A stretch of 64,000 nucleotides of DNA, taken from positions 124,001 to 188,000 of the forward strand of contig JADZAS010000005.1 of NCBI GenBank assembly GCA_020852515.1, given 5' to 3'. Made by a program: the position numbers and the translations under genes. The DNA comes from Phycisphaerales bacterium (GTDB taxonomy: Bacteria > Planctomycetota > Phycisphaerae > Phycisphaerales > UBA5793). Below are positions 19,524-23,595 of the stretch, in pieces. Position 1 is the stretch's first letter. Each line of letters starts with the position of its first letter. Under the pieces are notes generated by a model that saw only the letters and a program-made list of their open reading frames with translations, was not told where the DNA came from and searched no databases.

Positions 19524-20429
19524 GTGAACCGCGTGAGCAAGTCGCCCATCATCTATGTTTCCCTTCCCGAATCGTTCAACGAGCGAGTCGTTCTGGAGAT
19601 GATCGCGCAATCGGCAACTGCAACTGGCGCGCGAGTCATACGCATTGGAGCAATCGAGCCTCGGCATACTGGACCCCTGGCTGAAACTGCCCGCTCTACA
19701 ATCTCCGCATCGGACTTGGTGATCGCTGACATATCGGACGCCAACTCAAGCGTTATGTTTGACGTAGGTTTGGCAACTGCACTAGAAAAGCCCTTAATCC
19801 TCTTGGCATCGGGGAGCCGCGCAATCCCGTTTGGCCTCGCCGGAGTCGAGGTGTTCATCTATGGGCCGCTTGAGAGCGATGCGGAGGTTTCTAAAAATAA
19901 ACTGAAGACTCTTATCATTGACCGCTTATCAAAGCCTGAAGGACGCAGCCTAGTCAGGTCTGCAGTCAACGATGGCCTGCGAAAGCACGTCTTCGTCAGC
20001 TACTCGCACGTCGACTTGCAGTATCTAAACCGCTTGCTAATACATCTCCGACCACTGGAACGAGACGGACTGATCGAGATTTGGGCCGATACCAGGCTCC
20101 GAGCCGGCGACCTCTGGAAGCAAGAGGTTGAGAAGGCGCTTCGTAGATCAGCAGTCGCCGTACTCATTATCAGTCCTGACTTTCTGGCGTCGGAGTTCAT
20201 CATAAACAATGAGCTACCGCTGCTGCTTCAGAACGAAGAGCAGCGCGGCGTGCGGATCGTACCAATTGTCGTGAAACCCTGCAGGTTTGCGCGGGACAAT
20301 AAGCTAAAGCAGTTCCAGTCCGTTAACGACCCCAAGGAACCGCTGATCTTGATGCCTGAGGGAATCCAAGAACAAGTCTACGATCAGGTTGCCCTGGAAG
20401 TCGAACAGTGCTTGCTGCAAATCGGCTGA
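19524..20429 (+). CDS. Two-domain TIR protein with N-terminal deoxyribosyltransferase-like domain
   Basis: A cytoplasmic protein of 301 residues with two visible parts. Residues of about 8-115 (PIIYVSLPESFNERVV, SDLVIADISDANSSVMFDVGLATALEKPLILLA) resemble the nucleoside 2-deoxyribosyltransferase/SLOG-like Rossmann families that bind nucleotides. Residues of about 155-265 are a TIR domain (HVFVSYSHVDLQYLNRLL, LIEIWADTRLRAGDLW, AVAVLIISPDFLASEFIINNELP). Glu230 sits where bacterial TIR NADases carry the catalytic Glu. Start is GTG 19524, or GTG 19533. Many A/T-ending codons (for example TCTAAAAATAAACTG) differ from the GC-rich neighbours, suggesting acquisition by transfer. TIR proteins of bacteria commonly act in anti-phage defence by consuming NAD+ or making signal nucleotides; that role here is inferred. 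No partner gene is adjacent. Confidence 0.75.
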   Translation: MNRVSKSPIIYVSLPESFNERVVLEMIAQSATATGARVIRIGAIEPRHTGPLAETARSTISASDLVIADISDANSSVMFDVGLATALEKPLILLASGSRAIPFGLAGVEVFIYGPLESDAEVSKNKLKTLIIDRLSKPEGRSLVRSAVNDGLRKHVFVSYSHVDLQYLNRLLIHLRPLERDGLIEIWADTRLRAGDLWKQEVEKALRRSAVAVLIISPDFLASEFIINNELPLLLQNEEQRGVRIVPIVVKPCRFARDNKLKQFQSVNDPKEPLILMPEGIQEQVYDQVALEVEQCLLQIG

Positions 20430-20485: not shown

Positions 20486-20801
20486 GGGCGTGTGTTGGAG
20501 CGGTGGCATGGGGGGGCCTGCATCGGGTCTCGCCCCTTTCGGGGCTCTGGGCGGGTTCGAGTCGCATCCCCACCCCCGCCGGACGTCGCAGTGCCGGCCA
20601 AGGCGTTGATCGGTCAGGGGCCCGCGCCGAACCGTCAGATCTCGACCTGGCCAACGTTGCTCGATGCCTCGGTGCCTTGATGCCTCGATGCCCTGATGCC
20701 TTGATGCCCGCCTACCTCAATTCCTTCGTGCCCCCTTCGTGCCTTCGTGCCCTTTGTGGTAAACCTTCAACCCGCCTCGCGCACGCAGCCCACAAACACA
20801 A

Positions 20802-20830
20802 AGCGGCGCCGAGATGATCTCGGCGCCGCT
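20802..20830 (-). terminator. Rho-independent terminator of the thioredoxin-like gene
   Basis: A perfect 14-bp inverted repeat AGCGGCGCCGAGAT / ATCTCGGCGCCGCT with a one-base centre, followed on the minus strand by TTGTGTTTGTGG. It lies 55 bp after the stop codon of the gene at 20886-21683. Confidence 0.75.
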
Positions 20831-20885
20831 CCAGTTGGCTGATTCGGAATGTCGCGCGACACACGGCGTGGCGCGCCGCCGCGGG

Positions 20886-21683
20886 TCAGTTGCGATCCCC
20901 GGCTTGGTTCTTCTCTTTCATCTCGGCCAGCAGCGCATCCACTGCTTCATCCATCTTCTCGTTGCGCACGTTCGTGTAGCGCACCCGTCCCTCGCCGTCG
21001 AGGACGAAGATGGTCGGCCAGGAGTAGACGCCCCATTTCATGGCGATCGGGCCGCGCGTGTTGCCGCCGTCCCAGAACATGGGCCACGAAAGGTTCTGCT
21101 CCTTGATGGCTTTCTGAATGCGATCCTTGGGATCGCTGTTGATGCCAAGCAGGACGAAGGGTTCATCTTTCAATCGTTCAACGAGCGACCGCTCGTGCGG
21201 GTACATGGCCCTGCAAGGCGGTCACCAATCGCCAAAGAAGTCGATGACGACGACTTTGCCGCGATACTGCGCCAGTTCCATCGACTTGCCGTCGATGCCT
21301 TCGCCCTTGATGTTGGGCGCGATGCGGCCGATGGTGAGGTTCTCAACGCGATAGAGATTGGTCTTGATGAGATCGGCGTGCTTGGGGTACTTGGCCGCGA
21401 GCGCCTGGAGGAAGTCCGAAGCCGTCTTCACCTGCTCATCGGAGACGGCCATGCCGCTGATGGCCACCGTGCCCAGCGCGTTGCGCAGGGCCGCGGCGTC
21501 ATCGCTCTCGGCTGCCGCCTTGATTTTGTCGAGGCGTTCCTGGAGTTGCACATCGGTCATGGCCGGGACGTCGGCTTCCAGCAGCGAAGCGTTCGGCCGA
21601 GCCAACTCGGCCGCTCCCATCGCCGCCGGCGTAACCAGCGCCGCAGCCAGCACGAGGCAACTCATGCTGAATCTGACTCTCAT
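20886..21683 (-). CDS. Thioredoxin-like (TlpA-type) probable selenoprotein with in-frame TGA
   Basis: One gene read through a TGA at 21224-21222. The first part carries a signal peptide (MRVRFSMSCLVLAAALVTPAAMGA), a helical region of about 85 residues, then the thioredoxin start (IGRIAPNIKGEGIDGKSMELAQYRGKVVVIDFFGDW). Immediately after the TGA the same frame continues PPCRAMYPHERSLVERL and ends with SWPTIFVLDGEGRVRY, which holds the cis-proline of the fold. The redox motif thus reads W-UGA-P-P-C where relatives have WCxPC, so the TGA (residue 154) is exactly the first redox Cys. Start at 21683 follows GGAGG by 9 bases. A GGUC-loop hairpin lies downstream of the TGA. The product would be an exported thiol/selenol oxidoreductase of 265 residues. 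Selenocysteine is inferred; a nonsense mutation is the alternative. Confidence 0.8.
21181..21196 (-). promoter_or_regulatory. Candidate bacterial SECIS hairpin
   Basis: In the mRNA the hairpin reads ACGAGC-GGUC-GCUCGU: a 6-bp perfect stem with loop GGUC, beginning 25 nt after the UGA, loop 31 nt after it. Bacterial SECIS elements place a small hairpin with G and U in the apical loop shortly after the UGA; the well-known fdhF loop also contains GGUC. The stem encodes His-Glu-Arg-Ser-Leu, so it is compatible with the protein. Confidence 0.6.
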
Positions 21684-21834
21684 AGATTGAATCCTCCGCA
21701 TGAAAAAGGGACCGGATCAGCCGCTGGACTGTAGCGCCGCAGCCGCCGCGGGTTGCACCCACCCCCGAAACCGGCGGCGTGAGCGAGATACAGTACCTCG
21801 CGAATTCCGCCGCCCGCCAGCAGAGGAGCCCGGC

Positions 21835-23595
21835 ATGAAACGACCGCTTCGCACCCCAAGCCTCGCACTCGCCCGCCTGATCTGCCTCCTCGCGTGCGCC
21901 GGGGTGGGCGCCGGGGTGGGCGCCACAAGTCTGGCACAAAGCCCGCCGGAGGATGCCAACTTCGCCGCCGATGAAACCGGCCGGAAGATCGTCGAACTTG
22001 CGCAGGCGTACGAGTCGGCCGGGTTTCGCGGCGCGGTGCTGGCCGCGCGCGACGGGAAGGTCATCGCGGCCGTGGGTGTCGGGCATGCGGATCTGAAGGG
22101 CGAGCAGCCCATCGTCCCTTCGACACTCTTTGAGATTGCCTCGATCACCAAACCTTTCACGGCGGTCGAAGCGATGCGCCTCGCGGCGGCTGGCAAGCTC
22201 GATCTCGATGCATCGATCAGCGAGTACCTGCCCGGCGTACCCGATGAGTGCAAGCCGATCACCGTGCGGCATCTGCTTCAGCACACCTCGGGCATTCCGG
22301 GGACGAATTCGCAGGGCAGCGGCGATGATCTCGCGGCTGTGCTGCCCGTGTTTCTCAAGGGCGGCCCGCAGCACGAGCCGGGCACGCACTGGGAGTACTG
22401 GAACCAGGGCTATTCGCTGCTGAGTGAGATCATCGCGCGGGCCAGCGAGGAATCGTGCGTGGACTATTGCCGCCACGCCATCTTCGAGCCGGCGGGCATG
22501 GCGCACTCGTGCTTCACCGGTGACGCGGCGCCGGAGGGCGTCAACGTCGCGGTGGGCACATCGGGCTATGGCGAGCCGCGCTCGGCGCTGGAGCATCCCT
22601 ACGGCAGTTACGGCTACCAGTATCGCGGCATGGGCGGGCTCGTGACCAACGTCTGGGACCTGTGGCGCTGGGATCGTGCCCTTGCCGGCGAAGCGCTGCT
22701 GAGCGAGGCGAGCAAGACAGAGATGTTCACACCCGGCGATCGGAGCTACGGCCTGGGCTGGTTCGTGCTCACCAACAAGGCCGGGCGCCTGATGCAAAGC
22801 CACAGCGGAGGAGTGCGCGGCTTTGCCTGCGATTTCCGCCGTTTCCCGGAGCACGAGGCGCTGGTGGTGGTGCTGAGCGCGCGCGATGATGTGCCGGTAT
22901 GGCGCATCGCCGAGGCGGTGGAGACCACGCTGTTTGGCGATGGTCAGGTGCAGGCGCCCCCGGCGCCGCTCGAGTCGCAAATGGCGGGCGAGATTGCTGG
23001 CCGGTATGAAGATCAGCGCGGCAACGCACTGACTGTGGAGCGCCAGGACGCCGCCACGCGAGCGACGGTGAAATGGACGTCGGGTCCGACGACGCGCGCC
23101 ATCCTTGGGCTGGGGCCGCAAGGCGGGCTCGTGTTCTATGACTGGATGAGCGCGATCGGCGTGGAGGTCGTGCGCGATGAGGCCGGCGCGGTAGACGCGC
23201 TGACGATTGATGGACATCCGTACCAGCGCATCAAGCCAGGTGCTGAGGGCGCTCGACCCGTCGCTGAAAAGCAGGCTGCTCCAAAGACAGGCGGCGAAGT
23301 TCCCGACTGGGCCGCTCTGCTCCTGGGCCGCTACCAGGATGAAAAGGGAATCGAACTCGTCGTCGCAACATCGGGCCGCATGGTCACGGCACAGATTCAC
23401 TGGTCGCCGCAGGGGCCAATCACCTACGCCAGGCTGGAGCGCACCGAGGCTGGCGAATTCGAGTTTGTCGAGTTCTCGCGTTCGCCGTCAAAGTACCCAG
23501 TCGAGATCGTGCGCAACGACGCCGGCAAGGCGCAGTCCATCACCCTCGTCGCCGAAGGACAGCGGCAGAAGTTTGAGCGGGTGCAGGAGAAGTGA
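21835..23595 (+). CDS. Serine hydrolase of the beta-lactamase/D-Ala-D-Ala carboxypeptidase family (class C-like)
   Basis: An exported serine hydrolase of 586 residues. The ATG at 21835 follows GAGGAG; signal peptide ends near SLAQSPP. The three active-site elements of the penicillin-binding fold are present: SITK (nucleophile Ser, about residue 102), the Tyr motif in YWNQGYSLLSE (Y-W-N, about 190) and HSGG near residue 325 replacing KTG. Two similar beta-rich segments of about 75 residues each follow (GRYEDQRGNALTVERQ and GRYQDEKGIELVVATSG), as in many esterase/peptidase members. The substrate is unknown: esterases, D-aminopeptidases and beta-lactamase-like proteins all belong here. It is divergent from the selenoprotein gene, with 151 bp between the starts. 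Confidence 0.9.
   Translation: MKRPLRTPSLALARLICLLACAGVGAGVGATSLAQSPPEDANFAADETGRKIVELAQAYESAGFRGAVLAARDGKVIAAVGVGHADLKGEQPIVPSTLFEIASITKPFTAVEAMRLAAAGKLDLDASISEYLPGVPDECKPITVRHLLQHTSGIPGTNSQGSGDDLAAVLPVFLKGGPQHEPGTHWEYWNQGYSLLSEIIARASEESCVDYCRHAIFEPAGMAHSCFTGDAAPEGVNVAVGTSGYGEPRSALEHPYGSYGYQYRGMGGLVTNVWDLWRWDRALAGEALLSEASKTEMFTPGDRSYGLGWFVLTNKAGRLMQSHSGGVRGFACDFRRFPEHEALVVVLSARDDVPVWRIAEAVETTLFGDGQVQAPPAPLESQMAGEIAGRYEDQRGNALTVERQDAATRATVKWTSGPTTRAILGLGPQGGLVFYDWMSAIGVEVVRDEAGAVDALTIDGHPYQRIKPGAEGARPVAEKQAAPKTGGEVPDWAALLLGRYQDEKGIELVVATSGRMVTAQIHWSPQGPITYARLERTEAGEFEFVEFSRSPSKYPVEIVRNDAGKAQSITLVAEGQRQKFERVQEK

Follow-up and report, generated by a model that had tools for sequence, protein, structure and literature searches.

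Within the window, by which we mean the whole 64,000-nucleotide stretch of DNA analysed, a minus-strand frame starts with an ATG at 21683 and meets an in-frame TGA at 21222-21224. Without read-through, the frame is listed as two ORFs of 159 and 106 aa; when the TGA is read through, the frame 20886-21683 encodes 265 residues. The segment VVVIDFFGDW precedes the TGA and PPCRAMYPHERS follows it, giving W-UGA-P-P-C, in which the TGA stands for the first Cys of W-C-P-P-C. The features of the locus are as follows.

20886..21683, minus strand: gene of a predicted 265-residue TlpA/ResA-like selenoprotein, stop TGA at 20886-20888 included
21222..21224, minus strand: in-frame UGA, predicted selenocysteine (Sec), residue 154, at the first Cys position of W-C-x-x-C
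21213..21215, minus strand: codon of the resolving cysteine, Cys157 of U-P-P-C, an invariant alignment column
21181..21197, minus strand: predicted 17-nt SECIS core hairpin CACGAGC-GGUC-GCUCGU, from comparison and the bSECIS model
21187..21190, minus strand: GGUC apical loop, 31 nt after the UGA
21015..21017, minus strand: cis-Pro codon, Pro223 in SWPTIF, invariant in the nine nearest Sec genes
20976..21332, minus strand: AhpC-TSA/Redoxin (thioredoxin-fold) domain, residues 118-236 (PF00578, E 1e-22)
21609..21683, minus strand: signal-peptide-like N-terminal segment MRVRFSMSCLVLAAALVTPAAMGAA, judged by eye from the sequence
21693..21697, minus strand: Shine-Dalgarno GGAGG, 9 nt ahead of the ATG, in a spacing region kept in G004 and G001
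20799..20833, minus strand: terminator-like hairpin 3′ of the gene, 16 pairs, weak T-tract

A sequence-only reading of this DNA had described the TGA between the same flanking peptides, an intact cis-Pro in SWPTIF, a good ribosome-binding site, a terminator and, 31 nt past the UGA, a 6-bp hairpin whose loop is GGUC. All of these were recovered: the TGA lies at exactly those coordinates, GGAGG precedes the ATG by 9 nt, the GGUC loop begins exactly 31 nt after the UGA, and the terminator appears as the 16-bp hairpin at 20833-20799, though with a weak T-tract. Short imperfect direct repeats (GGCATCAAGGCATCAGGGCATCGAGGCATC...) occupy 20660-20765 (minus strand) between the selenoprotein gene and the next gene. 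An ORF at 19524-20429 (plus strand) contains a TIR_2 domain (PF13676, E 1.7e-16) and shows a weak nucleoside deoxyribosyltransferase-like match as well; its product is possibly an NAD-related or defence protein. On the other side, the divergent neighbour at 21700-23595 (plus strand) contains a beta-lactamase-fold domain (PF00144, E 2e-53); as listed, this ORF begins only 17 nt from the selenoprotein ATG, so its true start probably lies further in.

The thioredoxin-fold assignment rests on a PF00578 score of 80.8 bits against a cut-off of 26, and a segment without a named domain separates this domain from the signal-like N-terminus. That N-terminus, together with the analogy to TlpA and ResA, suggests that the protein may be exported or membrane-anchored. 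The nearest solved structures are ResA proteins (PDB 4nmu, E 5e-16), and Bacillus ResA, Rhizobiaceae TlpA and DsbE (CcmG) are the best relatives in fold and sequence, although each has Cys where the window protein has predicted Sec. Among NCBIfam models none was over its cut-off for the window protein, which reached 66.8 of 170 bits for ResA (NF002854), 46.4 of 230 for TlpA (NF047696) and 53.5 of 123 for DsbE (TIGR00385). Because these scores are far below the cut-offs, we do not assign the protein any particular function in the maturation of cytochrome c. NF041054, a ResA-like WAxxUGC motif protein of the UGC TlpA family, likewise combines a ResA-like fold with Sec, but its motif is UGC rather than UxxC, and with 20.6 bits the window protein stays below its cut-off of 300. 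An AlphaFold model built from a two-row alignment was poor (pLDDT 50) and was not used.

Searching the genome of the window (4.72 Mb, 39 contigs, 96.7% complete) for selA, selB, selC (tRNA-Sec) and selD, as the sequence-only reading had proposed, returned all four over curated cut-offs: SelA with 531.3 bits, SelB with 362.7 bits, SelD with 348 bits and tRNA-Sec with 68.2 bits (ARAGORN type tRNA-SeC, anticodon tca). The genes form one single-strand cluster in the order selD-selB-selA-selC (contig C16:98647-103305; G000, locus L065). SelD contains an in-frame TGA of its own and is predicted to be a selenoprotein itself; a hairpin in selD, UUGCACAGGUUGUGCAA, has a GGU-containing loop that starts 31-32 nt after the UGA of that gene, which suggests independently the spacing and loop that the SelB of this genome would use. 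About 1.5 kb downstream of selC lies a further UGA-bearing TlpA/ResA-like gene with the motif FASW-UGA-QGC (L065:3-1532, minus strand; G000 contig C16 around 97130-97144), whose best NCBIfam match is NF041054 (69 bits, below cut-off); the surroundings of the G004 sel cluster yielded no relative. A genome-wide search with the DNA pattern W-UGA-x-x-C gave 147 matches, too unspecific a yield, and indicated one further candidate.

These data bear on whether TGA stands throughout this genome for a different amino acid (Trp or Cys), an idea that the position of the TGA at a Cys site might recommend. Neither selA nor selB contains an internal TGA, and a stop interrupts only 2 of the 21 AhpC-TSA matches of the genome, in both cases a TGA and in the two paralogues (types a and b) described below. 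The window gene and several relatives also use TGA as their final stop, a dedicated tRNA-Sec is present, and conserved genes with internal TGAs at scattered positions were not seen. Genome-wide reassignment is accordingly a vanishingly improbable account of the locus.

The family to which the genome belongs (f1) holds two paralogues that are about 50% identical: type a (W-U-P-P-C), which includes the window gene and occurs in G000, G004 and G001, and type b (W-U-G-P-C, or U-D-P-C in G005), which occurs in 6/6 f1 genomes; selA was likewise found in all six. The type a orthologues of G004 and G001, 95% and 69% identical to the window gene, respectively, keep the TGA. Among the matches listed for 151 genomes of the same genus, family and order, an internal TGA was seen only in the six f1 genomes; apparent TGAs in G007, G047 and G080 were rejected as terminal stops of Cys proteins. 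Over the 100 codons after the TGA, dN/dS was 0.19-0.20 for type a and 0.09-0.15 for type b, and comparison of the orthologues points to purifying selection on both sides of the TGA.

A profile built from the nine f1 genes was then applied to class and phylum samples, in which the family was found widely. At 121 homologous sites from fetched loci the codon for the first Cys was TGA in 98 and a Cys codon (TGC or TGT) in 23, so that TGA and Cys alternate exactly here, which supports placing the TGA at the first Cys position of WCxxC. The UGA genes span 27 families, mostly with the motif WUGPC and also with WUPPC or WUGGC, and in a companion count of 93 UGA genes the domain contained a single TGA in every case. 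A quick maximum-likelihood tree implied about eight changes between Sec and Cys, only two of them forced by well-supported branches, compared with 21 changes when labels were shuffled. In the tree the window gene groups with WUPPC genes that belong to other Planctomycetota families (loci L167 and L166), a placement that would fit either horizontal transfer or an old duplication with loss. A gene 95% identical to the window gene was found in a Planctomycetota MAG; searches of plasmids returned nothing but distant TlpA proteins (below 60% identity), and neither the UGA-hairpin cassette nor the protein family was found in viral contigs.

The distribution of the Sec machinery follows that of the UGA. 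Outside the order, 70 of 76 UGA-bearing genomes had selA over the cut-off, as against 0 of 4 Cys-only genomes (family f51, 97-100% complete). Of the remaining UGA-bearing genomes, one has selA split over two contigs and five, all incomplete assemblies (77-91%), gave no selA match. SelB was over its cut-off in 7/7 tested class genomes with UGA at the motif.

A nonsense mutation in an ordinary Cys thioredoxin, or a sequencing error, would also interrupt the frame with a TGA, and most annotation pipelines would give two fragments for such a gene. The same TGA, however, is present in independent assemblies, in different species and in 27 families, which refutes this explanation; independent assemblies have TGA, not TGC or TGT, at the codon corresponding to 21222-21224. 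Purifying selection downstream of the TGA, the lack of a further stop in the domain and the conservation of the hairpin at the nucleotide level weigh in the same direction, making a pseudogene or an error extremely improbable.

The core hairpin has a stem of 6 bp in the window gene and 7 bp in most relatives, and its bases also encode HERSL and the start of V. The element CACGAGCGGTCGCTCGT begins 24 nt after the UGA and is identical in 9/9 f1 genes. Across the phylum, 70 of the 98 UGA genes, representing 21 families, carry an identical copy of the 17-nt hairpin, and with two mismatches allowed it occurs in 78/98 UGA genes versus 0/23 Cys genes (Fisher p 3e-13, uncorrected for kinship). Codon usage within the hairpin is strongly biased: in the 74 UGA genes that encode HERSL, the codons are CAC (97%), GAG (99%), CGG (99%), TCG (100%) and CTC (99%), compared with usages of 0.43, 0.56, 0.39, 0.14 and 0.46, respectively, elsewhere in the same genes. 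Ser12 in particular is TCG in 74/74 of these genes, and from codon usage 0.45 exact copies of the hairpin would be expected among them, compared with the 70 seen. Pairing is kept in three of four variants, namely CAU (U-G wobble), CUU (G-U wobble) and CAU...AUG, the last being a compensatory change from C-G to U-A. The codons vary in Cys homologues that encode the similar motif HEREL. The near-identity of the hairpin is what one would expect, since HERSLV, fixed by the protein, and a GGUC-looped stem together leave almost no choice of codon.

The hairpin of the window gene also conforms to the bSECIS model, which calls for an upper stem of 4-16 bp, a distance of 16-37 nt from the UGA to the apical loop and an energy at or below -7.5 kcal/mol (PMC13188914): it has a 6-bp stem, a spacing of 31 nt, the loop GGUC and an energy of -8.2 kcal/mol as a 19-nt piece or -8.8 with flanks. 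In longer pieces of the gene competing folds appear, one of which pairs the loop with bases right after the UGA, and the hairpin is not the minimum-energy fold once flanking bases are included. Some of the competing folds, not all, would be removed by the ribosome, which shields about 11 nt of the mRNA in front of it (PMC4513850). The thermodynamics of this single hairpin are thus not exceptional, and the argument for a SECIS rests on comparison between genes rather than on folding energy.

The SECIS of E. coli fdhF presents a GGUC apical loop, which binds domain 4 of SelB. In the window hairpin the loop is the same, the spacing is longer (31 nt) and the stem lacks a bulged U.

In twenty UGA genes the core is changed at more than two positions. 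Seven of them have a G-G mismatch in the stem and would need another SECIS, while several keep the CACGA/UCGUG stem with another loop. The common GGUC hairpin was absent from L217 (G485:C206), L124, L125, L132 and L115, which have WUGGC or other motifs; the WUGGC group and a few others must, on this comparison, use a different SECIS. A more distant TlpA-like protein with W-UGA-A-P-C (L146, G339:C139:1000-1515) has a strong 9-bp hairpin 18 nt after its UGA and is probably an independent selenoprotein.

Taken together, we consider it about 97% probable that the product of the window gene is an exported thioredoxin-fold oxidoreductase of the TlpA/ResA type, with Sec as its N-terminal, attacking redox residue. 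Directly visible in the sequences are the UGA, which is conserved and alternates with Cys, the hairpin and the Sec machinery of the genome; the selenoprotein proposal of the sequence-only reading gains support from that machinery, from the TGA/Cys alternation and from the nearly letter-for-letter conservation of the GGUC hairpin. For the insertion of Sec, export, redox direction and substrate we infer the following course. SelB carrying Sec-tRNA-Sec would bind the GGUC hairpin, located 31 nt past the UGA, and deliver Sec to that codon as residue 154, and translation would run on to the real TGA stop, which is without the hairpin element. By analogy with ResA and TlpA, Sec154 would then act in the cell envelope, its selenolate attacking a disulfide or some other oxidised substrate, and the selenenylsulfide would be resolved by Cys157.

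In E. coli the efficiency of UGA recoding reaches only 30-40% (PMC4513850). A truncated product is therefore probably made as well, which lends some credit to purposeful termination at the UGA, with a truncated protein or two products as the outcome and Sec read-through minor or regulatory. We regard that arrangement as very unlikely, given that the UGA occupies the site of the catalytic Cys, that Cys homologues read straight through and that the downstream half is under purifying selection.

Selenoproteins of the UxxC type in the TlpA-like/AhpC-TSA class are already catalogued (PMC1088965, PMC2398784, PMC13188914), and Sec use by Planctomycetes is known (PMC4807772). Table 1 of PMC13188914 lists a thiol-disulfide isomerase-like selenoprotein (cd02966, TlpA-like, UxxC) from the Sargasso Sea set, a Prx-like thiol:disulfide oxidoreductase (PF00578, UxxC) and a Redoxin family selenoprotein (PF08534, UxxC). 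Compared by description only, the window protein resembles these entries in its thioredoxin-fold TlpA/AhpC-TSA class and in having Sec first in UxxC; they come from marine metagenomes and mixed taxa, with no named Planctomycetota clade. In the open-access literature, outside which most subscription journals lie, we found neither this Planctomycetota family described nor an invariant SECIS shared across a phylum. UxxC TlpA-like selenoproteins are a known kind; what is new is a family that spans the Planctomycetota and keeps its SECIS nearly invariant. On balance we favour the view that this is a large, uncatalogued family of exported TlpA-like selenoproteins, often represented by 2-4 genes per genome and mostly in the Sec form, whose 17-nt SECIS would have stayed almost letter-perfect over at least 21 families, since the same bases encode HERSLV and fold for SelB.

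What appears to be a broken thioredoxin is, on this reading, a conserved selenoprotein, and Planctomycetota would possess a broad family of selenoprotein thioredoxins that standard annotation would split in two. Further members may be sought with a simple DNA probe, TGA + 24 nt + CACGAGCGGTCGCTCGT, and the family may serve as a natural test bed for the requirements of SelB. One may further ask why these bacteria would use selenium in several parallel thiol reductases of the envelope.
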